The notes under the pieces are model-generated. The model did not search any database, was not told the origin of the DNA, and worked only from the letters and a program-made list of their open reading frames with translations. This document shows positions 19,881 to 35,784 of a stretch of 64,000 bases of DNA, piece by piece. Each line of letters opens with the position of its first letter. Position 1 is the stretch's first letter. The stretch lies in NCBI GenBank assembly GCA_036378175.1, contig DASUWY010000073.1, forward strand, positions 1 through 64,000. The letters are read 5' to 3'. The position numbers and the translations under genes were made by a program. Source of the stretch: Thermoleophilaceae bacterium (GTDB lineage: Bacteria > Actinomycetota > Thermoleophilia > Solirubrobacterales > Thermoleophilaceae).

Positions 19881-20314
19881 CCGCCGCGCCCGCGCGGCAT
19901 CTGCTGGATCGCCCAGCCGTTGCCGTCCGGGTCCTCGAAGAAGACGAAGCCGGCGAAGTCGAGCTCGTCATCGTCCCGAGCGTCCCGCGGGCCGCTGCCC
20001 TCGAACACCTGGATCTCGCCGAGCTCGGCGCCGCGCCCCACCAGCTCGGCGCGCGTGGCCCGCAGGTCGTGGGTGACGAGCTGTAGCCCCTTGATCGGGC
20101 TCGCGGATTGCGCCCCGGCGCCGCCACGGGACTGGATCACGATCGAGCACGCCGAGCCGGGCGGCGTGAGCTGGACCACGCGGTAGTCCTCGGTCACCTG
20201 CCTGTCGACGTCGACGTTGAAGCCGAGCTTCTCCGAGTAGAACGCCTTCGCGCGGTCGAGGTCCGCAACCGGCACGACGATCACTTCGAGCCTCAGTTCC
20301 ATCCCTACAACCAT
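19877..20314 (-). CDS. VOC-fold (glyoxalase/bleomycin-resistance) protein, last gene of the carboxylase operon
   Basis: 145 residues with the paired beta-alpha-beta-beta-beta units of the vicinal oxygen chelate fold: VVPVADLDRAKAFYSEKLGF near 15-34 and FVFFEDPDGNGWAIQQM near the end. The first-strand position that usually carries a metal-binding His/Gln appears hydrophobic, so the metal site may be incomplete. It overlaps the HAD gene upstream by ten bases and is the last of seven overlapping genes that include a dikinase-like phosphotransferase and a biotin carboxylase. That places it as a possible isomerase/epimerase, lyase or binding protein in that pathway (inference). Confidence 0.72.
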   Translation of the reverse strand: MVVGMELRLEVIVVPVADLDRAKAFYSEKLGFNVDVDRQVTEDYRVVQLTPPGSACSIVIQSRGGAGAQSASPIKGLQLVTHDLRATRAELVGRGAELGEIQVFEGSGPRDARDDDELDFAGFVFFEDPDGNGWAIQQMPRGRGG

Positions 20315-21114
20315 CCCAGGAGCTCGGACGTATCCGCAACCGTCGCGTGCGGGCGGCGCTTCTCGGGCACCTTGCTCAGGTCGATGTCCGCGCTGATGCC
20401 GCTGCGCACCAGGACGGTTCGAGAGCCGCCGAGGTGGCCGAGGGCGACATCCATGAAGAGATCGTCGCCCACCACGGCGATCTCCTCGGTGGGCACGGCC
20501 AGGCGCTTGTGGATCTCGCGCACCGCCGCCTTCGAGGGCTTGCCGACGATGGTGGGGCGCGCGCTCGACGCCTTCGCGATCGCCGCGGTGACCATCGCGC
20601 CGCGGCTCAGGATCGGTCCGTTGGCGCCCGCGTACGCGGACACATAGCTGCCGGTGAGCAGCCGCGCGCCGGCAATCACAGCGCGAGCAGCCTGCTCAAG
20701 CTCAGGAAGGTCGGCGTGGTCGATGTGGGCCACGAACACCACGTCGGCCCGGTCGGCCTCCTCGGGGCCGACGAGGTTGAGGCCGCAGTCCAGCAGGTAG
20801 CGCCGAGCGGAATCGGTGACGAACGGCAGCACCACCGCGTCGCGCCGGCCGCGGTCGAGGTACGCCTGCACGCTGCACAGCGGGGTGAGCATCTGCTCGT
20901 CCTCCACCGGCAGGCCAACGTCGCGCAGGCCCTTGGCGAACACCGTCGGCGGCACATGGCTGCCGTTGGTGAACACGGCGAAAGGGCGGCCCGACTCCTT
21001 GATCCGCTCGAGCAGCTCCCGGGCGCCCGGCACCACGTGCGCCGTGTCGCCGGCGCGGTGGACGAGCGTGCCATCCACGTCGAACACGAAGCCGCGGACA
21101 TCGTCAAGACGCAC
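20305..21114 (-). CDS. HAD-superfamily subfamily IIA phosphatase (NagD-like) in the carboxylase operon
   Basis: 269 residues with all HAD motifs: FVFDVDGTLVH (nucleophile and acid Asp near 10-12), FTNGS near 49, VGKPSKA near 188 and VGDDLFMDVALG near 212. The large C2 cap is typical of class IIA phosphatases acting on small phosphorylated metabolites. It overlaps the carboxyltransferase gene by 11 bases, so a phosphatase is built into the phosphotransferase-carboxylase operon. A role in removing phosphate from a pathway intermediate or a dead-end product is inferred. A second class IIA phosphatase lies at 40284. Confidence 0.82.
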   Translation of the reverse strand: MRLDDVRGFVFDVDGTLVHRAGDTAHVVPGARELLERIKESGRPFAVFTNGSHVPPTVFAKGLRDVGLPVEDEQMLTPLCSVQAYLDRGRRDAVVLPFVTDSARRYLLDCGLNLVGPEEADRADVVFVAHIDHADLPELEQAARAVIAGARLLTGSYVSAYAGANGPILSRGAMVTAAIAKASSARPTIVGKPSKAAVREIHKRLAVPTEEIAVVGDDLFMDVALGHLGGSRTVLVRSGISADIDLSKVPEKRRPHATVADTSELLGWL

Positions 21115-22582
21115 GGCGCCACACCACCACGTCGTCGCCCTTCTCGAGCCGCATGTAGCTGATCGACTTCCGCCGCTCCACCTCGCGCAGCAGGCGCACG
21201 AGTGGGTCGCGGCCAGGCCGCGCCATGGACGGCGCCCGCTCGGTGGCGGGCGGCGACGCCACCATCGCGTCCACCTGCTCCTCCGGCATGGTCAGGCGCA
21301 GCAGCAGCTCCTCGTCCGAGATGCGCGAGCCGAACCGCTCGCGCGCGCCGTCGAGCGACACTGGCTCAACATGGCGCAGCTTCTCAGCCTGCGGGCGCGC
21401 CAGGACCCTGTCCGCGATCTCCGGATCCACCGGCGCAGCGGGCTCGCCGTAGTGGCCGAGGAAGTAGCGCACCGTCTCGTCGGACACGCTCCGCCAGCGC
21501 TCGCCGTCGATCACGTTCCGCGCCGCCTGGCTGGCCACGAACTGCGACACCGGGGTGACGAGGATCGGGTAGCCCATCTCCGCGCGCACGCGCGTGACTT
21601 CCTCGAGCACCTGGTCGAAGAGCTCGCCCTTGCCGAGCTCCTCGAGCATCCGACGCGTGGTGGTGACCATCCCGCCCGGCAGCTGATGGTGGTAGTAGGC
21701 AGCGTCGTACTCGAGCGGCTGGCCGGGCGGCAGTGCCTTCTCGCGGGCGAGCTCCCGGAAATGATCGGACACGACCGCGAGCGCATTCATGTCCAGCCGG
21801 TGCGAGTAGCCCTCGGCCTCGAGGTTGCGGATGGTCGACTCGGCGGTGGGCTGCGAGGTGCCGTTGCCGAGGGGCCCGCAGGCCGTGTGCAGCACCTGGT
21901 AGCCGGAGCGAAGACCCTCTATGTATACGAGCGGCGCGAGGCCGATCGTGCAGTGGCTGTGCAGCTCGAGCGTGCGCTCGCCCGCCGCGGCGCGCAGGGC
22001 CGGCGCAAGCTCCCGGACGGCATCCACCGTGAGCAGCCCGCCCGGGTCCTTCAGGTAGAGACGGTCCATGTGCTCGCAGTCGGCCATCGCGGCGGCACGC
22101 TCGGCGTAGTACTCGTGCGTGTGCACCGGGCTGATCGAGTACGTGAGGCCCACCACCACCTCCTCCACGCCCTCCTCCTTCGCCATCCGCGCGAGACGGC
22201 GCAGCGCGTCCGGGTTGTTCGACGGCTCGGCGATCTGGAAGCGGCGGATGCCGTTGCGCACCACGCAGCGGAAGGACAGCCTCATGAGCTCCTCATCGCA
22301 CGGTTGCCAGGCGATGAAGCGCATGCCGGTGGTGATGAAGTTGAGGAGCGTGCTCGGCATCGCGGCGCTCACGAGCCGGATGCGCTCCCACGGATCCTCC
22401 TTGTGGAAGCGCACGGACACGGCCATGTGCGTGCTCGAGGTGAAGTCGAGCGCGTGGAAGCCGACGCGCTCCATGGTGGGCGCGATCGACAGCACGTCGG
22501 GCGTGGTGAGGCCAGTGGCGCTCCACAAGCTCTGGTTGCCGTCGCGCGTCGTGGTGTCGACAATGTCGATGATCTGGCTCAT
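21104..22582 (-). CDS. Biotin-dependent carboxyltransferase, divergent relative of PycB/OadA
   Basis: 492 residues: an HMGL-like TIM barrel (1 to ~280), the PYC/OADA conserved domain (~290-430) and a short basic tail (ISYMRLEKGDDVVVWRR) where PycB would carry a biotinyl domain. Visible active-site elements are Asp14 and Gln17 (TRDGNQSLW), the carbamylated-lysine candidate Lys178 (LYLKDPGG) and metal ligands His208/His210 (LHSHCTIG). The His of the usual RDAHQS is Asn16. The pyruvate-binding arginine of pyruvate carboxylase aligns with Thr85 (FITTGMR) in my alignment by eye. So carboxyl transfer chemistry is kept but pyruvate is unlikely to be the acceptor. ATG 22582 overlaps the biotin carboxylase stop as ATGA. 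Confidence 0.8.
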   Translation of the reverse strand: MSQIIDIVDTTTRDGNQSLWSATGLTTPDVLSIAPTMERVGFHALDFTSSTHMAVSVRFHKEDPWERIRLVSAAMPSTLLNFITTGMRFIAWQPCDEELMRLSFRCVVRNGIRRFQIAEPSNNPDALRRLARMAKEEGVEEVVVGLTYSISPVHTHEYYAERAAAMADCEHMDRLYLKDPGGLLTVDAVRELAPALRAAAGERTLELHSHCTIGLAPLVYIEGLRSGYQVLHTACGPLGNGTSQPTAESTIRNLEAEGYSHRLDMNALAVVSDHFRELAREKALPPGQPLEYDAAYYHHQLPGGMVTTTRRMLEELGKGELFDQVLEEVTRVRAEMGYPILVTPVSQFVASQAARNVIDGERWRSVSDETVRYFLGHYGEPAAPVDPEIADRVLARPQAEKLRHVEPVSLDGARERFGSRISDEELLLRLTMPEEQVDAMVASPPATERAPSMARPGRDPLVRLLREVERRKSISYMRLEKGDDVVVWRRAS

Positions 22583-23919
22583 ACGATCGCCTCCTCCAAC
22601 CAGTGCGTAGTGATGCGGCCGTGGACGAAGTCGGGGTGGCCGAGCACCTCCGCGAGCAGGGCGCGGTTGGTGTCCACCCCGTCGGCCTCGAGCCGCTCGA
22701 GCGCCTCGTGAACGATCTCGATCGCCTCGTCGCGGTCGGCTCCGTGACCGATCAGCTTGGCCATCAGCGAGTCGTAGTGCGGTGGGATCAGCGCGCCGTC
22801 GCGGCAGTGGGTGTCCACCCGCAGGCCGGGCAGCTCCGGCACCGCGAAGCGAGCGAGCCGGCCCGGGCTCGGCATGAAGCCGTTGGAGACGTCCTCGGCG
22901 GTGAGGCGGCACTCCACCGCGTGGCCGTCGAACGTCACCTCTTCCTGCGAGAACGAGAGCGCCTGGCCGTCCGCGATCCGCAATTGCTCCGCCACCAGGT
23001 CACGCCCCGTCACCGCCTCCGTCACCGGGTGCTCCACCTGGATGCGGCAGTTCATCTCGAGGAAGAAGAACCCGCCGGTCGCGGCGTCCACGATGAACTC
23101 GACGGTGCCGAGGTTGCGGTAGCCGATGGCGCGCGCGAACGCCACGCCCGCCGCGGTGAGCGCCTCCCGCGTCTGCGCCGGAAGGAACGGCGCGGGCGCC
23201 TCCTCGATCAGCTTCTGGTAGCGCCGCTGCACCGAGCAGTCGCGCTCGCCGAGATGCAGCACCGTGCCGTGATCGTCGGCCGCCACCTGCACCTCCACGT
23301 GCCGGGCGTCGGCCACGTACCGCTCCACGTAGAGCCGCTCGTCGCCGAACGCCGAGCGCGCCTCCGCCACCGCCACGCCGAACAGACGCTGCAGCTCGTC
23401 CGGATCGTGCGCGAGCTTGATGCCGCGGCCGCCACCGCCGCCCGCGGCCTTCAGGAGGACGGGGAAGCCGGACTCCGCCGCGAAGGCCTCCGCCTCCATG
23501 AAGGTGCCGACCTCGCCGCCCGGCACGAGCGGCAGCCCCGCCTCGAGCGCCACCTCGCGCGCGCGCAGCTTGTCTCCCGCCAATTCCATCGCCTCGGGCG
23601 GCGGGCCGACGAAGCGGATGCCGTGCTCGCGCGCGAGCACGGGCAGGCGCGGGTTCTCGGCGAGGAAGCCGTAGCCGGCGTGGATCGCATCGCATCCCGT
23701 GCCGAGCGCCGCCTGCACCACCAGCTCCGGGCGCAGGTAGCTGTCGCTCGCCGGCGCCGGCCCTATGCATACCGCGCGGTCCGCCAGCTCGGCCGCGAGC
23801 CCGTCCATGTCCACCTCCGAGGCGCCCACCACGCATTCGAGCCCGAGTGCGCGGCACGCGCGCACGATGCGCACGGCGATCTCGCCGCGGTTGGCGATGA
23901 ACACCCGCGAGATGTCCAT
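22579..23919 (-). CDS. Biotin carboxylase subunit (AccC-like)
   Basis: 446 residues, the full length of a stand-alone biotin carboxylase. IANRGEIAVRIVRACRALG starts the N domain. The glycine-rich ATP-grasp loop KAAGGGGGRGIKLA lies near residue 160. Later come the conserved glutamate/asparagine set in FFLEMNCRIQVEHPVTE near 280 and the lid and C domain. It uses ATP and bicarbonate to carboxylate biotin on the carrier protein. CRIQVEH replaces the usual TRLQVEH, a small variation beside the active site. The ATG at 23919 overlaps the BCCP stop (TGATG), so expression is coupled; earlier in-frame codons lie over the BCCP gene. Confidence 0.9.
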   Translation of the reverse strand: MDISRVFIANRGEIAVRIVRACRALGLECVVGASEVDMDGLAAELADRAVCIGPAPASDSYLRPELVVQAALGTGCDAIHAGYGFLAENPRLPVLAREHGIRFVGPPPEAMELAGDKLRAREVALEAGLPLVPGGEVGTFMEAEAFAAESGFPVLLKAAGGGGGRGIKLAHDPDELQRLFGVAVAEARSAFGDERLYVERYVADARHVEVQVAADDHGTVLHLGERDCSVQRRYQKLIEEAPAPFLPAQTREALTAAGVAFARAIGYRNLGTVEFIVDAATGGFFFLEMNCRIQVEHPVTEAVTGRDLVAEQLRIADGQALSFSQEEVTFDGHAVECRLTAEDVSNGFMPSPGRLARFAVPELPGLRVDTHCRDGALIPPHYDSLMAKLIGHGADRDEAIEIVHEALERLEADGVDTNRALLAEVLGHPDFVHGRITTHWLEEAIV

Positions 23920-24332
23920 CAAGCCGGCTCGACCCGGAACAGCGGCTGGCCGTACTCCACGAGCGCGGCGTTGTCCGCGCACACCTCGACGATCGTCCCC
24001 TCAACGCCCGCGGGGATCGAGTTCATCATCTTCATCACTTCGATCAGGCAGACGATCGTGTCCGCTTGGACCTTCGCTCCAACGTCGACGAAGGGCGCGG
24101 CCCCGGGGGCCTCGGCCCTGTAGAAGGTGCCCAGCATCGGCGCGTCTATGGTCGCGCCGTTCGGGCTGGGTGACTGGTGACTGGTGACTGGCGACTGGTG
24201 TATGGCCTCCGGCGCCGCACCGCCGCGGAGCACATGCAGCCTGAAGCCGTCGGTCTCGATCAGGAGCTCATCGAGGTCCGACTCGTCGATGAGCCGGAGA
24301 ATCTCCCGCACGTCGTCGTCGCTCAGGGCCAC
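23919..24332 (-). CDS. Biotin carboxyl carrier protein (AccB-like)
   Basis: 137 residues. An N-terminal ~40-residue acidic region (DDDVREILRLIDESDLDELLI) is followed by a short flexible linker (HQSPVTSHQSPSPN). The biotinyl domain has the target lysine Lys101 in EVMKMMN. The linker is written by a seven-base DNA repeat, so its protein sequence also has a seven-residue period. The domain shuttles carboxybiotin between the carboxylase and carboxyltransferase encoded downstream. ATG 24332 directly abuts the stop codon of the ATP-grasp gene at 24333. Confidence 0.88.
   Translation of the reverse strand: MALSDDDVREILRLIDESDLDELLIETDGFRLHVLRGGAAPEAIHQSPVTSHQSPSPNGATIDAPMLGTFYRAEAPGAAPFVDVGAKVQADTIVCLIEVMKMMNSIPAGVEGTIVEVCADNAALVEYGQPLFRVEPA
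24170..24204 (+). repeat. Heptanucleotide repeat GTGACTG inside the BCCP gene
   Basis: Five units on the plus strand: three perfect GTGACTG, one GCGACTG and one GTGTATG. On the coding (minus) strand they encode the Ser/Pro/His linker of BCCP. Three units equal 21 bases, so gain or loss of one or two units would shift the frame. Confidence 0.8.
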
Positions 24333-25364
24333 CTACTGCTTCTTTTCCGCGCCGAAGGTGCTCATCAGGAGGGACATCGCTGAGGTCGGCTTCTTCTCTT
24401 CCTTCGGCTTCGCGATTCCGGTGACCGGGCGGGACTGCACGACGAACAACTCGCCGTCGCCGCGCGCGAAGGCCCACTCGATGTCCTGTCGCGAGCCGAA
24501 GTAGCGCTCCACGCGCTTGCCCACGTCCACGAGCGTGGCGATCCTCGGCTCGTCGAGGCACGGGATGTCCCGCCTCTCCTCGGGAACGTCCAGGAAAACC
24601 GTTCCGGCCTCGCCCGGGACGTACTCCACGGTCTTCGAGCTGATGTTCTCGCGCACGACCTCGCGCGTGACCTTGCTCACCAGGTAGTCGTCGGGAGTCA
24701 CCTCGCCGCCCACCACTGCCAGGCCCAGCCCCCACGACGCGTTGATGGCAACCATGCTCGGATCGCCGCTCACGGGGTTGCAGGTGAACATCACGCCAGA
24801 CACCTCGGCATCCACCATCAGCTGCACCGTCACGCCCATCGCTGGTTCCTCGTCCTTCTCGCCGAGCCGCGCCCGGTAGGCGATCGCGGGCGGGCTGTAG
24901 AGGCTGATCCAGCAATCGCGGATCGCGTCGCACACCTGTCCGGCGCCGCGTATCCAGAGGTAGGTCTCCTGCTGCCCGGCGAAGGTCGCCTCCTGGCTGT
25001 CCTCACCCAGCGCGCTCGAGCGCACGGCAACGGGTACGTCACCGAGCTCGGCGTAGTGCCTCGTCACCTCGTCGCGCACGGCGGCGGGCATTGGCGCTGA
25101 ATGCATCGCCTCGCTGATCGAGTGCGAGGCGCGGTTCACGGCGTCCACGTCGCCGGAGGAGGCGCGTTCGAGCGCATGCGCGATCACGCCGCGCAACCCC
25201 GCCTGCTCGACGAACAGCCGGAACGCCTCGCATGACAGCGCGAAGCCCGGTGGCACCGGGATCTCCGCCGCGATCAGCTCGCCGAGCGTGGAGCTCTTGC
25301 CGCCGAACGAGTCGGTGTCCGCCTGTCTGAGATCGGCGAGCGAACGTGTGAGCTCGGCGGCCAC
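24333..25364 (-). CDS. Stand-alone PEP-synthase/PPDK N-terminal ATP-grasp subunit
   Basis: 343 residues from GTG 25364, equal to the ATP-binding domain of PEP synthase, rifampin phosphotransferase and phenylphosphate synthase subunit 2. Markers include FGGKSSTLGELIAAEIPVPP near the start, VAVRSSALGEDSQEATFAGQ near 115, MTVQLMVDAEVSGVMFTCNP-type sequence near 190 (here GVTVQLM) and EWAFARGDGELFVVQSRPVT near 315. The domain uses ATP to phosphorylate the swivelling histidine, releasing AMP and phosphate. The histidine domain is on the separate upstream gene, with eight bases between its stop and this GTG. A charged tail (PKEEKKPTSAM) follows. The start is uncertain by a few codons. Confidence 0.82.
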   Translation of the reverse strand: MAAELTRSLADLRQADTDSFGGKSSTLGELIAAEIPVPPGFALSCEAFRLFVEQAGLRGVIAHALERASSGDVDAVNRASHSISEAMHSAPMPAAVRDEVTRHYAELGDVPVAVRSSALGEDSQEATFAGQQETYLWIRGAGQVCDAIRDCWISLYSPPAIAYRARLGEKDEEPAMGVTVQLMVDAEVSGVMFTCNPVSGDPSMVAINASWGLGLAVVGGEVTPDDYLVSKVTREVVRENISSKTVEYVPGEAGTVFLDVPEERRDIPCLDEPRIATLVDVGKRVERYFGSRQDIEWAFARGDGELFVVQSRPVTGIAKPKEEKKPTSAMSLLMSTFGAEKKQ

Positions 25365-25372
25365 GAGCTCGT

Positions 25373-27127
25373 TCAGCCCGCCCCGCCGTCGACGATCGAC
25401 ACCACCCCCGCGCTGCCGTCCACGCGGATCATCTGGCCGGTGCGGATCAGGGAGGTGGCCCGGCCCGTGCCCACCACGGCTGGCAGGCCGTACTCGCGGC
25501 ACACGATCGCCGCGTGCGACATCACGCCACCCACGTCCGTGACGGTGGCCTTGATCTTCGAGAAGATCGGCGCCCAGGCGGGCGACGTGGAGCCCGTGAC
25601 GAGTATCTCGCCCTCGCGCACGTCCGCCAGCTCGTCGATCGTGCGGATCACGCGCGCCGGACCCTCGATCGTGCCCGGCGACGCCGGCGCGCCGACCACC
25701 TCGGTGGCGGCGGGATCCTGCGAGCGCGCCCACTCCTGCACGCGCTGCGTGGTCACGCCCCAGAGCATGATCGTCATCGGATCGGTGACCACCTCGGGCG
25801 CCACACCGAGCGCCGGCGGCGGCGTCCAGTCGCCGAGCCTGGCGAGCAGCTCCTTGCGCCGCTCCACGATCGGCGGCCAGAAGCTCGGGCCGCGTGGCGC
25901 GCCGCCGGTGGCCCAGCACAGCACGAGCTCGTCGAGCGCGCTCATCACCTCGTGCCGGCCGAGCTGGAAGATGTCCTCGGCGTCGTTCAGGAAGCCGTTC
26001 CGGGCGAGCAGCTCCCCGAACTCGCGCAGCTTGTTCCACCAGCGCGTGAGGAACCAGTAGTCGCAGAAGAACTTGTGCTCCTCCACGTAGGGGAACACGG
26101 TCCGGGAGAGGCCCAGCAGCTCGTTGAACGTCTGCCGAGCGCCCTCGTCGAGCAGCGAGCCGTATTCCTCCGCGAGCCGGTCGCGCTCGCGTTGGATCTC
26201 CTCCGTGGGACGGTCGATCTGTTCGCCCGCCTTGAGCGCGTTGATGTGCCCGATGAGCGAGGCGTAGGGAATGCTCGGGTCGTCGAGCCAGGAGCGGTAG
26301 TAGTGGTACAGGCCGTCGCCCGTGGCCATGTTGAACCACGGGTCCTTCACCTGCTGGAGATCCTCGAGCCACTTCCTGCCGGCGTCGCTCTGCTCGAGCG
26401 CCGCGTCGATCTCCTCGGGCGTGCGTCCCTCCACGAAGGCGTCGTCGACGCCGGTGTCGATCGCGAGGCGCGCGAGCCGGCGCAGCTCGGCGTCCGGCCT
26501 GAAGAGCAGCACGTCGATGCCCGCGACCATCTGCGCGATGTGCTGGTCCGGGATGTCCGGCAGGTTGGCCTTGCAGTGGTCGGCGAAGGTGGCGTACGCG
26601 CCGTAGCCGAGCAGCAGGAACTCGAAGTGCCGCTGCCACATCAGGTCGCCCAGGCGCAGGCAGCGCTGGTAGGAGTCGAGCACGTCCACGAACGCCGTGT
26701 TGCGCTCGCCCTCCATCACCTCGTCCGGCTCGTACTCGGGAAGGTCCGGCACCGGGAGGTTGGTCACCTCGTCGATCAGCGCGCGCACCCGCGACTTCCA
26801 CTGCTCGTACAGCTCCGACCAGTTCTCGAAGTAGTAGCTCGCGCGGCGCTGGAAGAACTCGGCCCGCTCGGCCATCTTCTCCGGGTCCGTGACCGGATTG
26901 CCCGAGATGTAGACGTAGCCGTTCACGATCCGGTAGTCGATCCCCATGGCCGGCGGCACGGCAAAGACGCGGTTCTGCCAGGCCCCCACAGCCTGGTACG
27001 GGCTGTCGATGCACTGCACGTCGAACGCCGGCATCGGCACCGGGAAGTGCATCGAGTTCCAGAACCAGAAGCGCTTCTCGTCCGCATCGCGCCGCGCCTC
27101 GTCGAACACGGCGTAGTACGGATACAT
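25373..27127 (-). CDS. Substrate/phosphohistidine subunit of a split dikinase-type phosphotransferase
   Basis: 584 residues. The last ~120 are the PEP-utilising mobile domain with the phosphorylated histidine His538 in TDVGGVMSHAAIVCREYG. The first ~430 residues are helical and rich in Trp/Tyr/Phe (FWFWNSMHFPVP, LYHYYRSWLDD, FFCDYWFLTRWW). They resemble the substrate-binding region of rifampin phosphotransferase and phenylphosphate synthase subunit 1. No C-terminal PEP/pyruvate barrel is present, so it is not a normal PEP synthase. With the ATP-grasp subunit it should move the beta-phosphate of ATP to an unknown substrate. It is the first gene of the seven-gene run; GGGAGG sits next to the ATG and can pair with an upstream CCTCCC. 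Confidence 0.78.
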   Translation of the reverse strand: MYPYYAVFDEARRDADEKRFWFWNSMHFPVPMPAFDVQCIDSPYQAVGAWQNRVFAVPPAMGIDYRIVNGYVYISGNPVTDPEKMAERAEFFQRRASYYFENWSELYEQWKSRVRALIDEVTNLPVPDLPEYEPDEVMEGERNTAFVDVLDSYQRCLRLGDLMWQRHFEFLLLGYGAYATFADHCKANLPDIPDQHIAQMVAGIDVLLFRPDAELRRLARLAIDTGVDDAFVEGRTPEEIDAALEQSDAGRKWLEDLQQVKDPWFNMATGDGLYHYYRSWLDDPSIPYASLIGHINALKAGEQIDRPTEEIQRERDRLAEEYGSLLDEGARQTFNELLGLSRTVFPYVEEHKFFCDYWFLTRWWNKLREFGELLARNGFLNDAEDIFQLGRHEVMSALDELVLCWATGGAPRGPSFWPPIVERRKELLARLGDWTPPPALGVAPEVVTDPMTIMLWGVTTQRVQEWARSQDPAATEVVGAPASPGTIEGPARVIRTIDELADVREGEILVTGSTSPAWAPIFSKIKATVTDVGGVMSHAAIVCREYGLPAVVGTGRATSLIRTGQMIRVDGSAGVVSIVDGGAG

Positions 27128-27278: not shown

Positions 27279-27310
27279 ACTCTCCCTACTCCAACTCCTA
27301 CTCCCTACTG
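27279..27310 (+). repeat. Degenerate CTCCCTA-type short repeat at the permease gene end
   Basis: Units CTCCCTA, CTCCAA, CTCCTA and CTCCCTA run into the permease stop codon (TAG on the minus strand, 27307-27305). Spacing is 7, 6, 6 and 7 bases, so it is an irregular relative of the heptamer arrays at 3750 and 63020. Confidence 0.5.
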
Positions 27311-28915
27311 GCTTGCAGGCACCGGCTCCGCGGAATCGAGCCCCTCGTTGATCATCCGCCCCACGCTCTCGTACTTCGCTCTGTCATTCCGCTTGAGGTA
27401 CATGGCGTAGCCGAGACCGAGCAGGAAGATCGCCAGGTCGGCCCAGCAGAGCCACTTGGCGTACTGGTACCCAGAGCCCAGGAACGTCAGGTTCTTGATC
27501 GCCAGGTACAGCACGTATGCCTGCGCGGCTGCGGCAAGCAGCGGCGCGGTGAGCGTGGTCCACCAGTGGTGCTCTGCCTGGTGGTGCGTGCGGAAGTAGT
27601 TGACGATCGCGAGCGACACGATCGCCTGGATCGCGAGGATCGAGACCACTCCCATGAGCGCCATGAGGCCGTACACCTGGATGTACGCGACCGACTGCGC
27701 CGCGCCGGTCTTGGCGTCCACCGCCGCGAACAGCGCGAACACGCCCATGATCGCGGCCGCGATGAACGACTGCGTGGTGGACGCGATGTGCGGGCTGTGG
27801 AAGCGCGCGTGCGTGCGTCCCAGCACCGACGGCAACACGCGCTCGCGTCCCAGCGAGTACATGTAGCGCGCGGTGGTGTTGTGGAACGCCATTCCACAGG
27901 CGAAGGAGCCCGTGATGATGAACCAGCTCAGGCAGTCCTTGAGGAACTGGCCCGAGAACTGCTTGGCCGGGTTGAAGAAGAAGTTGGCCGAATCGTTCTG
28001 CGCCACCACCGCGGCGGCGTCGGTTGAGTGGTACCCGGAGATCGACGCCCACGACGTGACGACGTAGAAGATCCCGAGGCCGATCACCGAGATGTACATC
28101 GCACGCGGAACTGTCTTCTTCGGGTCCCGCGATTCCTCGCCGTAGTTGGGCGCCATTTCAAAGCCCACCCACGACCAGAACGCGAAGAAGATGCCGATGC
28201 CGGCAGCCCCCGCTGCGATCGCCGTGCCTCCCGCATGTCCGGCCGGCAGGCTCTTGAACGCGTTGATGGGATTGATCGCGCTGGCCGTGACGTTGCTCGC
28301 CCCGTCGGTGAACACCGCAAAGTCGAAGACGATCAGGGTCACGACCTCGCACAAGAGCGCGACACCGAGCACGCGAGCCGAGATGCGCACATCCAGGTAC
28401 GCGAGCACGCAGATCAGCGCGATCATGAACAGGCCGCACCAGTACCACTGGACATGCCAGCCGTAGCGCGCCGCCTTCAGTGAGGCGAAGTACGCGAACC
28501 CGCCGACCAGCGAGACCTCGAACACGCTGTACGCCGCGACCATCGAGAATCCGCTCGCCATCCCGAGCTCACGGTTGAGGCCGTGGCTGATGAAGCTGTA
28601 GAAGCCTCCCGCGGCCGTGACCTTTCTCGACATGGCCACGTAGCCGACGCTGAAGATCGTCAGCACGATGGTCGCGACGAGGAAGCCCGCCGGCGCGCCG
28701 ACGCCGTTGCCGAAGCCGACGGCGATAGGCGTGTTGAACAGCATCGCGGAGATCGGGGCCGCACCGGTGACGGTGAGGAACAGAACTCCGAGCAGGCCTA
28801 CAGATCTGCCCCTCAGCTTGAAGACGTCATCACGCTGCGAGACGTCGATGCTCTCGACGACGGGAAGCATCCCCTCACGGTGCTCCCCGAGTCCTGGGTG
28901 CTCAGTTGTGCTCAC
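27305..28915 (-). CDS. APC-superfamily amino acid/amine permease
   Basis: 536 residues with about 12-13 membrane segments. The APC start VGLLGVLFLTVTGAAPISAM (TM1) and a loop EESRDPKKTVPRAM near 265, typical of the amino acid-polyamine-organocation superfamily, are clear. The charged N-terminal tail is ~35 residues. As the last gene of the amine-catabolism operon it probably imports the amine or amino acid that the cluster degrades, by proton symport or exchange. The substrate is inferred only from context. Confidence 0.85.
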   Translation of the reverse strand: MSTTEHPGLGEHREGMLPVVESIDVSQRDDVFKLRGRSVGLLGVLFLTVTGAAPISAMLFNTPIAVGFGNGVGAPAGFLVATIVLTIFSVGYVAMSRKVTAAGGFYSFISHGLNRELGMASGFSMVAAYSVFEVSLVGGFAYFASLKAARYGWHVQWYWCGLFMIALICVLAYLDVRISARVLGVALLCEVVTLIVFDFAVFTDGASNVTASAINPINAFKSLPAGHAGGTAIAAGAAGIGIFFAFWSWVGFEMAPNYGEESRDPKKTVPRAMYISVIGLGIFYVVTSWASISGYHSTDAAAVVAQNDSANFFFNPAKQFSGQFLKDCLSWFIITGSFACGMAFHNTTARYMYSLGRERVLPSVLGRTHARFHSPHIASTTQSFIAAAIMGVFALFAAVDAKTGAAQSVAYIQVYGLMALMGVVSILAIQAIVSLAIVNYFRTHHQAEHHWWTTLTAPLLAAAAQAYVLYLAIKNLTFLGSGYQYAKWLCWADLAIFLLGLGYAMYLKRNDRAKYESVGRMINEGLDSAEPVPASQ

Positions 28916-29430: not shown

Positions 29431-30774
29431 TCAATAGAGCTCCAGGTACTCATCCCGCTCCCAGTCGGTCACGTGGTCGTGGAAGCGCTGCAGCTCGTAG
29501 CGGCGCACAGCCGTGTACGCCTTTACGAACTCCGGACCGAGCAGATTCACAATCGCCATGTCGGACTCGAGCGCGGCAAGCGACTCCTCCACCGTGGTGG
29601 GGAGCTTGGGCTTCGATTCGTCCTCCTCAGCGGGCTGGCGCGCGGGCGGCTCGAGCTCGAGCTGGTCGGCGATCCCGAGGATGCCGGCGCCGAGCAGCGC
29701 GGCGGACGCCAGGTAAGGGTTGGACAGTCCTGTGGGCGCGCGGTTCTCCACGTGCTTCGACTTCGGGTTGCCGCCCTTCACGCGCACGAACGCGCTGCGG
29801 TCCTCGAGGCCCCAGGACACGTTCGTGGGGCTGAACGTGTGCGTGCGACGCCGCTTGAGGCAGTTCACCGTGGGCGCGAGCAGCGTGTAGATCGCGCGAG
29901 CGTGACGAAGCTGGCCCGCCACGAAGCTGCGGCCAACGTCGGAGAGGCCCCACTCGTGGTCGGGATCGAGCATCGCGTTGTCACCCGAGTCCGCGTGCAG
30001 CAGGCCGATGTGGTTGTGCGCGCCGCAGCCGGCGCCGTCCTGGAACGGCTTGGACATGAAGCTCGCGATCAGTCCCTCCTGGTGGGCGAGCTCCTTGGCG
30101 CCGTTCTTGAACGTGAAGGCGGTGTCCGGCCCGGCCATGCCGCTGCTCGGCCCGAACACGATCTCCCACTGGGAGCCGGCGTACTCGCAGTTGGCGGTGA
30201 TGATGTCCACGCCGAACTGGCGCATCTCGCCCACGATGCGCTCGACAACCGGCACCCACGTGTTCCGCACCGTGTTGAAGATGTGGTAGCCGTCGAAGAG
30301 CGGCTGCTTGGTCTCGCCGTCGAGCAGGTAGAACTCGGGCTCGAGGCCGATCAGCGGCTCGTAGCCGAGCGCGCGGCAGCGCTCGAGCACGCGCCGGAAG
30401 ACGTGCCGCGGCGCCGCGCCGAGCGGCTGGCCGTCGTCCCAGAACGTGTCGCAGATCATGCGGCCGGTGGCCTCAACCCATGGCACGATGCGTGCGGTGG
30501 TGGGGTCGGGCTTGAGCCGCTGGTCGGCGTACGCGATCTCCTCGTTGTAGAGGCTGCCCGGCACGACGTCGGAACGGCTGTCGAGCACGATCGTGCCGCC
30601 GTACATGTTCAGGCCCTCGTCGGCATAGCGGCCGGCGTGCTCGATCGGCACGAGCTTCGAGCGGCTCGTGCCGTGCATGTCCGGAAGCTCGAAGCGGACG
30701 TTGCGGATGCCGGCCTCCCGCCAGCCGGCGAGAACGTCCTCGACGGTGATCTGCTGCTCCTCGGCGGTGGCCAT
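29431..30774 (-). CDS. Glutamine-synthetase-like ligase, probable glutamate-amine (gamma-glutamyl) ligase
   Basis: 447 residues with the GS fold: N-terminal beta-grasp (NVRFELPDMHGTSRSK), catalytic domain with LEPEFYLL near 145, CGAHNHIGLLHAD near 250 and NPYLASAALLGAG near 350. True GlnA has NxHxS-type ammonium-site features and a C-terminal adenylylation loop that are not evident here. In operons with PuuD-type hydrolases, aminotransferases and aldehyde dehydrogenases, such proteins attach glutamate to amines or polyamines (PuuA/GlnA2-GlnA3 type). The specific amine is unknown. It lies three bases downstream of the DUF6885-like gene. Confidence 0.8.
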   Translation of the reverse strand: MATAEEQQITVEDVLAGWREAGIRNVRFELPDMHGTSRSKLVPIEHAGRYADEGLNMYGGTIVLDSRSDVVPGSLYNEEIAYADQRLKPDPTTARIVPWVEATGRMICDTFWDDGQPLGAAPRHVFRRVLERCRALGYEPLIGLEPEFYLLDGETKQPLFDGYHIFNTVRNTWVPVVERIVGEMRQFGVDIITANCEYAGSQWEIVFGPSSGMAGPDTAFTFKNGAKELAHQEGLIASFMSKPFQDGAGCGAHNHIGLLHADSGDNAMLDPDHEWGLSDVGRSFVAGQLRHARAIYTLLAPTVNCLKRRRTHTFSPTNVSWGLEDRSAFVRVKGGNPKSKHVENRAPTGLSNPYLASAALLGAGILGIADQLELEPPARQPAEEDESKPKLPTTVEESLAALESDMAIVNLLGPEFVKAYTAVRRYELQRFHDHVTDWERDEYLELY

Positions 30775-30777
30775 GAC

Positions 30778-31614
30778 CTACCTCCTCGTCGTCCCGTTGT
30801 CCCAGAAGCCCACGTCGAGCCCCAGCTCGGTGGCCAGCGCGGTCACCGCCTCGGCGTTTTCCGGCGGTACGACCACGAGCACGCCGCCCTCGCGGCCGTC
30901 GCCGCGCTCGAGCGCGTCCGCCAGCGCGGCCGGCGGCTGGAGGTGCCGTCCCATCCAGCCGAGCGACGGATACGAGTCCACCACGAGCACCAGCGAGCCG
31001 GCGCGCCCGCGCAGGAGCCGCGAGAGCTCCACGAAGTGGCCCACCGTCCAGTCGGACGCCGGCGGGGTGTCCACAGCCTCACCATCGAGATGCGCGAGCA
31101 GCGCCTCGAGCGGCGGGCGGCTTCCCCACAGGGGGGCCGTGCTCACGTTGGCGAGCAGGCGTGCGCTGAGCCCGGGGGCCGCTTCCACCACGCGCTCCAC
31201 GCCGTCCGCGGTCCACTCCCCGCGCAGCGGCACGCAGCGCAGCGCGCCGGCCGCGGCACCTTCGATCGCTTTGGCAAGACCTCCGGCGGAGGTGCCCGAG
31301 CCGGCGGGCGCCGTTCGCGGCAGGTCGAAGCGGTAATCGGTGAAGCTCACGGCGCCCGGCGGCACCGGCGGCCCCTCCTGGACCTCCGGAAGCACCGTGC
31401 CGGACTCGAGCGCGATCAGGTCCTGGTCGAGCTCCTCGCCGTCCCAGCTCACGATCCCCGCCTCGCGGAGCACACGCGCCGCGTGGAAGGGCCCGCAGAG
31501 ATTGTCCTTCTGCTGAAGAGCAGCGCGCTGCCCACCGAGATCGGCCAGAACGCGCGCTCCTGTGAGTGCCTCAGCCACGACTCCCTCGGTCGGGGTTGTG
31601 CGTTGATATCCCAC
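30778..31614 (-). CDS. DUF6885-like protein with Cys/His peptidase-like motif
   Basis: 278 residues from GTG 31614; a later GTG at 31578 (V13), preceded by GGGAG, is a credible alternative that would lie downstream of a TTGACA-containing promoter candidate. The segment QQKDNLCGPFHAARVLREAG near residue 35-55 has a Cys in a papain/C39-like N-terminal helix. DWTVGHFVELSRLL near 195 supplies a His, followed by VLVVDSYPSLGW with Asp, a plausible triad. The family is of unknown function. Its place between two GS-like ligases and a PuuD-type hydrolase suggests hydrolysis or transfer of gamma-glutamyl amides (inference). Confidence 0.55.
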   Translation of the reverse strand: MGYQRTTPTEGVVAEALTGARVLADLGGQRAALQQKDNLCGPFHAARVLREAGIVSWDGEELDQDLIALESGTVLPEVQEGPPVPPGAVSFTDYRFDLPRTAPAGSGTSAGGLAKAIEGAAAGALRCVPLRGEWTADGVERVVEAAPGLSARLLANVSTAPLWGSRPPLEALLAHLDGEAVDTPPASDWTVGHFVELSRLLRGRAGSLVLVVDSYPSLGWMGRHLQPPAALADALERGDGREGGVLVVVPPENAEAVTALATELGLDVGFWDNGTTRR

Positions 31615-32359
31615 TTTCCGCAGTTGGTGTCAAGTCTGGTCCTTTTGACCAATTTCGAGCCGCATCGGCAAAAGCGGACATCATCTGGCTGCGCTCGTCG
31701 GCCTCCGGATGCCACTGCACGCCGAGGAGCCAGCGGCCGTCGTCCGCCTCGATCGCCTCGATCACCCCGTCCACCTCCGCGCGCCCGCTCACCACGAGCC
31801 CCTCGCCCAGCCTGTCCACCGCCTGGTGGTGGTGGCAGCTCGCCAGGTGCTCCACCTCACCGGCCGCCTCGGCGGTGAGGGATCCAGGCTCGAGGGTGAT
31901 CGCGTGCTCGGTTCCCTCGAACGTGCCGAGCGCCCTGCGGTGCGGGTTCGATCCCTCCACCTCCGGCAGGTGCTGCACGAGCGTGCCGCCGAACGCGACG
32001 TTGATGATCTGCATGCCGCGGCAGATCCCGAACACGGGCATGCCGCGGTCCACGGCGCTGAGCAGCAGGGCGATCTCGAAGTCGTCGCGGTCGCGGTAGG
32101 TGGACTCGAGCTCGGGGTCGCGCGGCGCACCGTACGAGGAAGGGTCGATGTCCGCGCCGCCGATCAGCAGCAGGCCGTCGATCCGCTCGAGCAGCTCGAG
32201 CGGCGCCCTCGCGTCCACCGGCAGGAGCATCGCGATGGCGCCGGTGCGCTGCACCGAGGACACGTAGGTGTCCGCCACGAGGTGCGCGGTCTGGTCCCAG
32301 AAGCTCCAGCGCGCGCGTTCGTGCACCGCGCAGATGCCGATCACGGGCTCAGACGGCAC
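31571..32359 (-). CDS. PuuD-type gamma-glutamyl hydrolase (class I amidotransferase fold)
   Basis: 262 residues, peptidase C26 family. The nucleophile is in VFGICRGMQIINVAFGG near residue 110, and the His-x-Glu of the triad in GVQWHPEADE near 220; LLLIGGADIDPSSYG is also typical of PuuD. The enzyme hydrolyses gamma-glutamyl-GABA or similar amides to recover glutamate at the end of the gamma-glutamylated amine pathway. It starts at GTG 32359, overlapping the second GS-like gene by 11 bases, and its 3' end overlaps the DUF6885-like gene by up to 44 bases. Confidence 0.83.
   Translation of the reverse strand: MPSEPVIGICAVHERARWSFWDQTAHLVADTYVSSVQRTGAIAMLLPVDARAPLELLERIDGLLLIGGADIDPSSYGAPRDPELESTYRDRDDFEIALLLSAVDRGMPVFGICRGMQIINVAFGGTLVQHLPEVEGSNPHRRALGTFEGTEHAITLEPGSLTAEAAGEVEHLASCHHHQAVDRLGEGLVVSGRAEVDGVIEAIEADDGRWLLGVQWHPEADERSQMMSAFADAARNWSKGPDLTPTAESGISTHNPDRGSRG
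31605..31651 (-). promoter_or_regulatory. Candidate internal promoter with TGGTC-N5-GACCA operator
   Basis: On the minus strand TTGACA (31633-31628) is 17 bases from GATATC (31610-31605), a usable -35 with a weak -10. Just upstream lies the perfect palindrome TGGTC-CTTTT-GACCA (31637-31651), the dyad type bound by FadR/GntR-family regulators. The same TGGTC half-site appears twice in the promoter region of the operon at 37847-37863. The site falls inside the PuuD-like coding sequence. Confidence 0.45.
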
Positions 32360-33665
32360 GGCCGTAGCGCTCCCTCTCCCAGTCGCTCACAGCCTCGCGC
32401 CACGCCTTCAACTCCCACGCCCGCGAGACGAGGTAGTAGTCGCAGAACGTCTCGCCGAGCACCGCGCGCAGGTCGGCATCGGCGCTGAATGCCGCGATCG
32501 CGCTCTCGAGCGAGCCGGGCAGCGGCGGCAGGTCCTCGCGGTCGGACGCGTCGCCCTCCACGGGCGGGGGCGGCTTGGCTTCGCGCCTGATGCCGTCGGC
32601 GGCCGAGGCCACCAGCGCGGCCAGCGCCAGGTACGGGTTGGCGTCCGCGCCGGGGCGGCGGCACTCGATGCGCCAGCGCTCCGGCTTGTCGCCCCGGATC
32701 GCGCGCACGGCGGCCGAGCGGTTCTCGATGCCCCAGCTCGCGTTCACGGGCGCGAACCAGCCGGGCACGAGCCGCTTGTATGAGTTCACCGTTGGGTTCA
32801 GCATCAGGGACGCTCCCGCCAGGTGGTCGAGCACACCCGCGATGGCCGACTCGAAGAGCGCCTCATCCGAGGCGAACGCGCTCTGCCCATCGCGCCAGCA
32901 CGACAGGTGCACGTGCCCGCTCGAGCCCTCCTCGCCGGGCACCGTCTTGGCGAGGAAGCTGGCGGTCAGCCCCATCGCGCCCGCCACCTCCTTCACCGCG
33001 AGCTTCACGAACGCGGCGTCGTCCGCCGCCCGCATCCCGTCGCGGGCTGCGATGTTCAGCTCGAGGAGCCCGGGCCCGGCCTCGGTGTGCACGGCGGAGA
33101 GCTCAACGCCGAGCGCGTCCAGCGCCGGACCGAGACGGGTCACGAAGGCGTCGAAGCGCGCGATCTCGCCGAGGCTGTAGCTGATGCCGGACGACAGCGG
33201 CTGGTCCTCCGCGTCGCGCAGCCGCACCTCGTACTCGAGCGCGGCGCGGGTCTCGTAGCCGAGCTCGGCCATCTTCTCGAGAGCGCCGCGCAGCACCTCG
33301 CGCGAGGCGAGCTCGCACGGGCGGCCGTCCGGCCAAACGGGAGTGGCGAGGCAGATGCGCCAGCCCGGCAGCCACGACAGCTCGCGCAGGGTGGAGGGAT
33401 CTGGCCGCACCACGAGGTCACCCGCGCCGGAGCGGATGCCGAAGCTCTCGTAGTCGGTGATCGGGGTGTCCGTGGGGTCGAGGGCGAGCAGCAGGTCGGT
33501 CATCACCGCGCCGTCGCGAAGCGCCGCCTCGAAGGCGGCGGGTCGTAGCGCCTTGCCGCGCACCTGCCCGTTCACGTCCGGCAGCCCGAGCAGGACGTAT
33601 TCGCCGGCCGCGCCCTCGGGAGTGGCCGCGCCCGCCGGCAGGTCGCCCAGGCTCACGTCGGTCAC
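32349..33665 (-). CDS. Second glutamine-synthetase-like ligase
   Basis: 438 residues from GTG 33665, which overlaps the aminotransferase stop as GTGA. GS-fold landmarks: LLGLPDVNGQVRGKAL near 30, LEYEVRLRD near 145, GSSGHVHLSCW near 255, SYKRLVPGWFAPVNASWG near 305 and NPYLALAALVASAADGI near 355. It is clearly diverged from the first GS-like protein and lacks ~40 residues of its C-terminal insert, so the two probably act on different amines or amino acids. No adenylylation site is visible. Confidence 0.8.
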   Translation of the reverse strand: MTDVSLGDLPAGAATPEGAAGEYVLLGLPDVNGQVRGKALRPAAFEAALRDGAVMTDLLLALDPTDTPITDYESFGIRSGAGDLVVRPDPSTLRELSWLPGWRICLATPVWPDGRPCELASREVLRGALEKMAELGYETRAALEYEVRLRDAEDQPLSSGISYSLGEIARFDAFVTRLGPALDALGVELSAVHTEAGPGLLELNIAARDGMRAADDAAFVKLAVKEVAGAMGLTASFLAKTVPGEEGSSGHVHLSCWRDGQSAFASDEALFESAIAGVLDHLAGASLMLNPTVNSYKRLVPGWFAPVNASWGIENRSAAVRAIRGDKPERWRIECRRPGADANPYLALAALVASAADGIRREAKPPPPVEGDASDREDLPPLPGSLESAIAAFSADADLRAVLGETFCDYYLVSRAWELKAWREAVSDWERERYGRAV

Positions 33666-34999
33666 GACAGCCGCTCCTTCACGCTCTTCTCCACGTCGGC
33701 GATCGTGGCGGCGAAGCGCTCCACCATCTCGCCAAGCTCCGCGTCCGTCGCGGTGAAGGCGGGCGCGAGCAGCGTCTGGTCGCCCGTGTAGCCATCGGGT
33801 GTGGAGTGGGTGGAGGTGACGAGCAGCCCGTTCTCGAACGCTGTCTGATCCACGAGCGCGGCGGCGTCCAGCTCGTCGGGCAGGAATGACTCGCCGTCGC
33901 GCGGATCCACCAGCTCCACTCCGAGCAGGAAGCCCACGCCGCGCACCTCGCGCACGATGTCGTTCCCGGACAGCGCGGCCCCGAACTCGTCGCGCAGAGA
34001 CGGCCCGCGCTCGCGCACGCGATCCACAAGCCCGCGCTCCACGAGGATCTCGAGCACCGCGAGCCCGGTGGCGCAGGACAGCGGCGCGCCGTCCCAGGTG
34101 TGGCCGTGCTCGAACTCCCGCGAGCCGCCCGCCAGAGCGTCGTACACCTCCTGCGTGCAGAACGTGGCCGATAGCGGGAAGTAGCCGGCGGCAAGGCCCT
34201 TGCCGCCCGTGACGATGTCCGGCTCGATCGGCAGCGGCTGGCCTGCGAACCAGGAGCCGGTGCGGCCCATGCCGGTGACCACCTCGTCGAAGCAGACGAG
34301 GAAGCCGTGCTCCTCGCGGCGCTCTGCCAGCCCTTTCCAGAAGAGCTCTGGCGGCGCGTATCCGGGGAGCGCCGCCGCGCTCACGGGCTCGCAGAAGAAC
34401 GCCGCGATGGAGTCCGGTCCGGCGCCCTCGATCACGCGATCGAGCTCGTCGAGCGCTGCCTGCCCGCTGGGATCGAAGCGCCAGGTGGCGGGCGGCACGT
34501 GCATGTGCCCGGGCAGATACTCCGAGTAGGGCCGCTGGAGGGTGCGGCGGCCCGTGAGCGCGAGCGCTCCCATCAGCGCGCCGTGGTAGGCCTGCGCCTG
34601 CGTGATCACGCGCCACCGGCCTTCCTCACCGCGGTCCACGTGGTACTGACGCGCCAGCCGGAGCGCCGACTCGTTGGCCTCCGAGCCACCGGTGGAGAAG
34701 CGCACGCGCGCCATCTCCGGCGCCGCGATCTCGATCAGGCGCGAGGCGAGCCGCTCCTGCGGCTCGTTCGTGAAGTGGTGGTTGTAGATGTACGCGAGCT
34801 CTTCGGCCTGGCGCAGCCCGGCGTCCACGATCTCGGTGTTGCCGTGCCCGAGACAGACGGCCATAGCGCCGCCCGAGCAGGCGTCGAGCACCTCGAAGCC
34901 GTCCGTGGTCCAGAGGCGGACTCCCTCGCCGCGCTCGATGTTCGGATACGGGAGGTCGAGCAGGCGCGGGAAGACGTTGGTCCGATCGGCGGTGATCAT
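33662..34999 (-). CDS. Class III PLP aminotransferase (first of two)
   Basis: 445 residues, fold type I omega-aminotransferase. Visible are the phosphate-binding FSTGGSEANESALRLAR near 105, the Asp stacking on PLP in LVCFDEVVTGMGRTG near 245 and the Schiff-base lysine in TGGKGLAAGYFPL near 273. It removes the terminal amino group of an amine or omega-amino acid to give the aldehyde used by the dehydrogenase at 37920. ATG 34999 overlaps the stop of the GntR gene (ATGA). About half its residues match the second aminotransferase at 36460, indicating an old duplication. Confidence 0.87.
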   Translation of the reverse strand: MITADRTNVFPRLLDLPYPNIERGEGVRLWTTDGFEVLDACSGGAMAVCLGHGNTEIVDAGLRQAEELAYIYNHHFTNEPQERLASRLIEIAAPEMARVRFSTGGSEANESALRLARQYHVDRGEEGRWRVITQAQAYHGALMGALALTGRRTLQRPYSEYLPGHMHVPPATWRFDPSGQAALDELDRVIEGAGPDSIAAFFCEPVSAAALPGYAPPELFWKGLAERREEHGFLVCFDEVVTGMGRTGSWFAGQPLPIEPDIVTGGKGLAAGYFPLSATFCTQEVYDALAGGSREFEHGHTWDGAPLSCATGLAVLEILVERGLVDRVRERGPSLRDEFGAALSGNDIVREVRGVGFLLGVELVDPRDGESFLPDELDAAALVDQTAFENGLLVTSTHSTPDGYTGDQTLLAPAFTATDAELGEMVERFAATIADVEKSVKERLS

Positions 35000-35784
35000 G
35001 TGGCGAGCCTCCTCCGGATCGCGCTGAGCAGGGCGTGCACGCTCTGCTCGCTGTTTGCGCAGTGCAGGTCCATGGCGGCCTCGGCCGCATCCGCGTCGCG
35101 CGCCTCGATCGCGCGCGCGATCTCCTCGTGCTCTCCTGAGATGCGGCGGTGCCAGGTGTCCGACTCGGGGAGAAGGCTCATCGTGTCGTTCAGCCGCAGC
35201 CGGATGTCCTCGATGGCCGCCTCCATGAAGCGGTTGCGCGTGGCGCCCGCCACGGCGAGGTGGAAGGTGGTGTCGTCACGCATGTAGTCGGGCTCCGTCT
35301 GAGCCTCCTTCATCGCGCGGATCGCGCGCCACATCGCGGTCACGTCCGCCCGCCGGCGAACCCGGGCGGCCTCGGCCGCCACCAGCGGCTCGAACCTTCG
35401 GCGGTACACAAGCAATTCCTCGAGCTCCTTGCGCTGGCGCAGCACGCGCGCCATCAGCTCCTCCATCGCGCCCGCGTCCTCCGCGGGCTCACGCACGAAC
35501 GTGCCGCCGCTGCGGCCGCGGCGAGCCTCCACGAGCTGGTCCGCCTCGAGCAGGCGCATGGCATGCTGGATCGTGGGGCGGCCCACTCCGAACATCGAGG
35601 CCAGCTCGCGCTCGGACGGCAGGGCCTCGCCGGGCCGGATCAGCCTCAGCGCGATGTGGCGGCGGATCTGCTCCGCCACGTACTCGTGAGCCCGCAGCTG
35701 CTGGATCGGCTCGAACTGCGCGAGCTCGGCACCGCTGCCGTTCGCGTGACGCCGCCTGCGAGAGCGGCGGATCTCAACCGCCAC
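34996..35784 (-). CDS. GntR-family transcriptional regulator (FadR/FCD type)
   Basis: 262 residues from GTG 35784. A basic tail (RRSRRRRH) is followed by the winged helix (YVAEQIRRHIALRLIRPGEA, PSERELASMFGVGRPTIQHA) and an all-helical FCD ligand domain with metal-binding-type residues in DDTTFHLAVAGATRNRF and the downstream His residues. Such regulators usually repress and are released by a pathway metabolite. It is embedded in the operon with overlaps on both sides, so autoregulation is expected. The TGGTC/GACCA sites at 31637 and 37847 are its likely targets. Confidence 0.87.
   Translation of the reverse strand: MAVEIRRSRRRRHANGSGAELAQFEPIQQLRAHEYVAEQIRRHIALRLIRPGEALPSERELASMFGVGRPTIQHAMRLLEADQLVEARRGRSGGTFVREPAEDAGAMEELMARVLRQRKELEELLVYRRRFEPLVAAEAARVRRRADVTAMWRAIRAMKEAQTEPDYMRDDTTFHLAVAGATRNRFMEAAIEDIRLRLNDTMSLLPESDTWHRRISGEHEEIARAIEARDADAAEAAMDLHCANSEQSVHALLSAIRRRLAT

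Follow-up and report, generated by a model that had tools for sequence, protein, structure and literature searches.

The window analyzed here is a stretch of 64,000 nucleotides from a Thermoleophilaceae bacterium (contig DASUWY010000073.1). It contains an operon of six genes, all on the minus strand, in the order kinase alpha, kinase beta, biotin carboxyl carrier protein (BCCP), biotin carboxylase (BC), carboxyltransferase (CT) and HAD phosphatase, with the genes upstream of CT overlapping or abutting. From first to last, they are as follows.

25373..27127, minus: kinase alpha, with the swivelling phospho-His domain, HpeH/PpsA-like, motif GGVMSHAAIV (NF006153, 884 bits against a cut-off of 578; Pfam PEP-utilizers)
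24333..25376, minus: kinase beta, with the PEP-synthase ATP-binding domain, HpeI/PpsB-like (Pfam PPDK_N, E 1.1e-97)
23919..24332, minus: BCCP, biotin site VMKM (TIGR00531, 117.4 bits against a cut-off of 115.2)
22579..23919, minus: BC, start MDISRV (Pfam Biotin_carb_N / CPSase_L_D2 / Biotin_carb_C)
21104..22582, minus: CT, 492 amino acids, with Thr85 and Arg88; probably belongs to a phospho-hydroxyphenylethanone carboxylase and resembles HpeA in size and in its place in the gene order
20305..21114, minus: HAD-IIA phosphatase, HpeD-like, overlapping the end of the CT gene (Pfam Hydrolase_6 / Hydrolase_like)

The plus strand of 21104-22582 can also be read without stops, yet its translation is meaningless, and the real open reading frame is that of the minus strand. 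The BC is 66-71% identical to the gene occupying the same place in actinobacterial relatives. A second block of minus-strand genes adjoins the operon (29431-37800) and includes two glutamine-synthetase-like genes, a gene of the glutamine amidotransferase class, two aminotransferases and a GntR-like regulator. This looks like a set for amine or polyamine breakdown, and an APC permease encoded at 27305-28915 may belong to either group.

The carboxyltransferase and its substrate site

The CT gene encodes HMGL-like and PYC_OADA domains (Pfam), and the nearest named families and solved structures are PycB, OadA and transcarboxylase 5S. The profile scores fall below every curated cut-off for these proteins (oadA, 280.8 bits of a required 756.5; PRK12331, 257.7 of 718; PRK12330, 194.7 of 827; PRK09282, 304.7 of 402). 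The window CT has in common with them the TIM-barrel CT fold, the metal ligands and a lysine at the carbamylated position; it differs in lacking the arginine that binds the pyruvate carboxylate, in having arginine for the asparagine of LLRGxN, in having its carrier domain on a separate protein and in belonging to a separate clade.

An earlier note on this DNA had read the protein as a metal-dependent CT that had lost its pyruvate-binding arginine, and the residues that it named (R13-D14-G15-N16-Q17-S18, F82-I-T-T85-G86, K178, H208 and H210) all carry the numbers assigned to them. Ungapped alignment with four solved carboxyltransferases (Vibrio cholerae OadA, 2nx9; Methylobacillus flagellatus PycB, 5ks8; and transcarboxylase 5S of Propionibacterium shermanii, 1s3h and 1rqb) bears out its assignment of Thr85 to the position of the LLRG arginine, its reading of the RDAHQS motif as RDGNQS (residues 13-18) and its view that the metal site is kept, with Asp14, His208, His210 and Lys178, the carbamylated position, all in place. 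The alignment also puts Arg88 at the place of the canonical asparagine of LLRGxN. It shows no other arginine at the carboxylate position itself, the placement that would have told against the note, although Arg88, three residues away, may reach the pocket. Superposition of a predicted model, a check that the note had suggested, gave agreement with PycB, OadA and 5S at the level of the whole fold (Z 36-39 over 424-432 residues); the mean pLDDT is 80, falling below 50 in the active-site loops 15-23 and 53-56.

The function of the lost arginine is known from the pyruvate carboxylase of Lactococcus lactis, the metal ligands of which include His732, His734, Asp534 and carboxylated Lys703 (PMC9581989). 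There, Arg606 binds pyruvate or oxaloacetate, and its mutation abolishes activity; when the site is empty, it swings out and contacts Asn609 (PMC9581989). The spacing of R-G-x-N in the alignment suggests that Arg606 and Asn609 correspond to Thr85 and Arg88 of the window CT. Since both partners of the contact are altered, the change appears to involve two linked positions rather than one.

Relatives of the protein were gathered in three ways. A search with the window protein gave 17 loci in Solirubrobacterales/Thermoleophilaceae and Burkholderiales; among 396 genomes searched across the phylum were a further five, forming a family at ~70% identity, and a single one at ~51%; and a plasmid search added CTs from Rhizobium, Pseudomonas, Sphingobium, Sphingomonas, Novosphingobium and Rhodococcus. 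Of these proteins, 29 form one clade with support of 100/99, set apart from the canonical rows by a long branch; its members come from Solirubrobacterales and a second actinobacterial family, from Burkholderiales and Sphingomonadales, and from Rhizobium, Pseudomonas and Rhodococcus. The clade persists when columns 79-93 are removed from the tree (SH-aLRT 99). The phylogeny that the earlier note had proposed as a further check thus separates the window CT from PycB/OadA, and its suggestion of an acceptor other than pyruvate is supported.

Within the clade, position 85 is threonine in 28 of 29 relatives and serine in the other, with arginine in all five canonical rows; position 88 is arginine in every one of the 29 and asparagine in all five canonical rows. 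As judged from these alignments, the loss of arginine at position 85 is a fixed trait of the clade and not a matter of chance. Other residues that are fixed or nearly so, and not found in the canonical rows, include Trp92, Arg114, Tyr176 and Arg311. The CT of Rhodococcus sp. JS3073 lies inside the clade, at 47% identity to the window CT, and the pairing of its row with the window group has support of just 91/79.

Gene neighborhood and the known Hpe pathway

The order and kind of the six window genes are those of hpeH, I, C, B, A and D. In Rhodococcus rhodochrous GD02, the kinase encoded by the eight-gene operon hpeHICBADEF has two parts and is related to phenylphosphate synthase; the biotin carboxylase has three, and the remaining genes encode a phosphatase (nearest nagD), the CoA ligase HpeE (nearest acsA2) and a couO-like hydrolase (PMC9618137). 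Along this route, 4-hydroxyacetophenone and acetovanillone, both substrates of HpeHI, are phosphorylated at the ring hydroxyl and carboxylated at the acetyl methyl group before the phosphate is removed, HpeD acting on the carboxylated products (PMC9618137). HpeCBA carboxylates the phosphorylated ketones only (PMC9618137), and the specificity of the kinase varies among the strains studied (PMC13101465).

The window system resembles that of GD02 in its first six genes, which are of the same kinds and similarly ordered, in its three-part biotin carboxylase and its HAD phosphatase, and in the presence of a ligase and a hydrolase in the genome. It differs in that the latter two are encoded outside the operon, where hpeE- and hpeF-like genes are absent, and in its Thermoleophilia-type actinobacterial host. 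The HpeE-like CoA ligase is found on contig C4 (746 bits, above the TIGR01217 cut-off) and the HpeF-like hydrolase on contig C6 (66% identity to the hydrolase of the Rhizobium cluster). Contig C61 carries pobA (538.3 bits, marginally below the cut-off of 538.7) and pcaH (355 bits, above cut-off). In the region C61:16156-20135 (L068:6148-11782), a second kinase-alpha-like gene (870.9 bits) lies close to this pobA, together with genes for a LysR protein and a CrtO-like FAD oxidoreductase. A kinase-beta gene was not seen next to it, and the kinase-alpha/LysR/oxidoreductase set recurs in a second locus, L021.

Further known systems are related in part. The homologous carboxylases AcvABCDEF of Sphingobium SYK-6 and XccABC of Aromatoleum aromaticum EbN1 are described as clustered with kinase genes, and the likeness is drawn from those descriptions (PMC9618137, PMC13101465); in SYK-6, however, the last two steps are encoded elsewhere by non-homologous genes, and XccABC serves anaerobic p-ethylphenol breakdown (PMC9618137, PMC13101465). 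Phenylphosphate synthase of Thauera aromatica and CreHI of Corynebacterium glutamicum are likewise two-part, PEP-synthase-like kinases acting on a phenol hydroxyl, but a carboxylase of another type, or a different route, comes after them, whereas the window kinase pair adjoins a biotin enzyme.

Solirubrobacterales (L007, L008, L012, L082 and others) retain the six-gene block, as do the five genomes of the second actinobacterial family (L070-L074), where an acetoacetate-CoA-ligase-like gene follows and where, in one case, the kinase alpha frame is split in the gene call. The ligase comes first in the block in genome G084. The HAD phosphatase directly follows CT in Actinobacteria, Burkholderiales, Sphingobium, Pseudomonas putida and Rhizobium, and all eight genes occur in hpeHICBADEF order on the plasmid of Rhodococcus sp. 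JS3073. In two relatives (G020 and G050), the operon stands between pobA and pcaGH, both within 20 kb of it. The Burkholderiales and sphingomonad members have no two-part kinase beside the carboxylase; instead, their clusters contain a gene for a Tm-1-like (UPF0261) ATP-binding protein, placed after the ligase in Burkholderiales. Clusters with this gene and no two-part kinase include those at L015:14348-15604, L090:6874-8121 and L089:4936-6168. The protein may be MarK, the single-component kinase reported for Novosphingobium (PMC13101465).

Several loci encountered in the searches deserve separate mention. Three bisphenol A degraders, Sphingobium yanoikuyae YC-JY1, Pseudomonas putida YC-AE1 and Sphingomonas bisphenolicum AO1, have the carboxylase cluster on plasmids (L089, L090, L099), with transposase genes nearby. 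It may there serve to process the 4-hydroxyacetophenone that arises from bisphenol A; a published account of strain YC-AE1 does not mention it. Plasmids of Caballeronia and Cnuibacter (L095:8980-12392, L098:5926-12610) carry a related CT-BCCP-BC set in which the arginine is kept and which neither a kinase nor a phosphatase adjoins; 3-oxoacid CoA-transferase and thiolase genes follow the Cnuibacter set, and an acetoacetate decarboxylase gene lies upstream of that of Caballeronia. A further type of CT, with glutamate at the Lys178 position of the metal site, occurs on Rhodococcus plasmids (L091:3872-15777, L096:1020-12768) together with PEP-utilizing, PPDK, AMP-binding, OB-fold, thiolase and tyrosine-phosphatase-like genes. 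In the JS3073 operon (L093:7029-10518), the second carboxylase gene encodes a BC of 49.5 kDa and the third a CT of 57.5 kDa, each calculated from one possible start. Table 1 of PMC9618137 labels HpeA (57.4 kDa) as biotin carboxylase and HpeB (49.3 kDa) as carboxyltransferase and, given the order and sizes of the syntenic JS3073 genes, these two labels look swapped.

Acceptor, proposed mechanism and alternatives

With high probability, the window CT belongs to a biotin-dependent carboxylase of three parts that acts on phosphorylated hydroxyphenylethanones and whose genes lie in an operon of the hpeHICBAD/acvABCDEF type; gene order, size and clade link the CT to the tested enzyme. Because the hpe gene order surrounds the CT, the acceptor can be named as a phosphorylated aryl methyl ketone and, by synteny, would be 4-phospho-acetophenone or 4-phospho-acetovanillone. 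The earlier note had offered a possibly uncharged acceptor. This holds for the end facing the metal, which has no carboxylate, but the aryl phosphate that synteny implies would make the molecule as a whole charged.

In the proposed mechanism, the two-part kinase would phosphorylate 4-hydroxyacetophenone or acetovanillone at the ring hydroxyl, and BC would load CO2 onto the biotin carrier. In the CT, where two histidines, an aspartate and a carbamylated lysine would hold a divalent metal, the acetyl methyl group would then lose a proton and receive the CO2. Removal of the phosphate by the HAD phosphatase would free the 3-oxoacid, which the CoA ligase and hydrolase would cut to 4-hydroxybenzoate or vanillate. 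With an aryl ring in place of the pyruvate carboxylate, the arginine that grips the latter would not be needed, and we propose that it became threonine for this reason. Arg88, Arg114 and Arg311, clade-fixed and not canonical, are our guess from the alignment for residues that might bind the aryl phosphate. We suggest, tentatively, a bolder reading, in which the changes Arg85 to Thr and Asn88 to Arg together constitute the specificity switch from a pyruvate-type CT to an aryl methyl ketone CT, with Arg88 (and Arg114 and Arg311) holding the aryl phosphate.

The most serious alternative, although we consider it rather unlikely, is that the acceptor is some other phosphorylated phenolic ketone, for example with a longer chain or different substitution, and not acetovanillone or 4-hydroxyacetophenone. 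The modest identity of the window CT to that of JS3073 and the width of the clade would allow this, as would the differences in kinase specificity between studied strains (PMC13101465); against it stand the many CT residues that are invariant across the clade and the downstream genes pobA and pcaH, which fit 4-hydroxybenzoate.

Acetone was the acceptor favored at first, when an acetoacetate-CoA ligase was seen after CT in two lineages. On that reading, acetone or a similarly small methyl ketone, which the PEP-synthase-like pair might first convert to its enol phosphate, would be carboxylated to acetoacetate, and the neighboring ligase would activate the acetoacetate. Acetone is pyruvate minus its carboxylate, and the ligase encoded after the HAD phosphatase in relatives, Burkholderiales and Solirubrobacterales among them, scores above the equivalog cut-off of 520.9 for acetoacetate-CoA ligase (821 bits in L015, 735 in L008 and 790 in L070). 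The window genome is also without the canonical acetone carboxylase gamma subunit (no match to PF08882; one relative, G050, has a match, and two more have weak ones), and its operon is of another kind from AcxABC. This idea was dropped, since a ligase of this type is also part of the tested hpe operon, which acts on phospho-acetophenones (PMC9618137): the nearest relative of hpeE being acsA2, an acetoacetate-CoA-ligase-like neighbor fits an hpe operon. That the kinase pair is of the phenylphosphate synthase kind, that pobA and pcaGH flank the operon in relatives and that bisphenol A plasmids carry the cluster also speak against acetone, and a literature search for a biotin-dependent acetone carboxylase found none; we regard it as improbable. 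The likelihood that the window CT is an ordinary subunit of pyruvate carboxylase or oxaloacetate decarboxylase, holding pyruvate through Arg88, is very slight indeed, for although its fold and metal site are of the PycB/OadA/5S type and Arg88 is close in sequence to the lost arginine, every cut-off for those families is missed (oadA by the margin given above), a kinase and a phosphatase make no sense for pyruvate and a long branch divides the clade from the canonical rows.

Significance

The preferred assignment, to the phospho-hydroxyphenylethanone carboxylases, adds a member, from an actinobacterial class that has been little studied, to a type of system that has been known since 2022, and the overall surprise is modest. 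The literature on the Hpe pathway that was searched contained no discussion of the CT active site or of the Thr85/Arg88 signature, which therefore has some value of its own. Nor did that literature give a reason for the requirement for a phosphorylated substrate, a question on which the proposed function of Arg88 bears; if the reading of the two changes as a specificity switch is true, it would explain the restriction of the studied enzyme to phosphorylated ketones and provide a means of marking the family in sequence data. The two-residue mark at positions 85 and 88 separates these carboxylases from the look-alike subunits of pyruvate carboxylase and oxaloacetate decarboxylase. A pathway for lignin-type ketones, known from a few strains of Rhodococcus and sphingomonads, would now extend to soil actinobacteria of the Thermoleophilia and to a second actinobacterial family.
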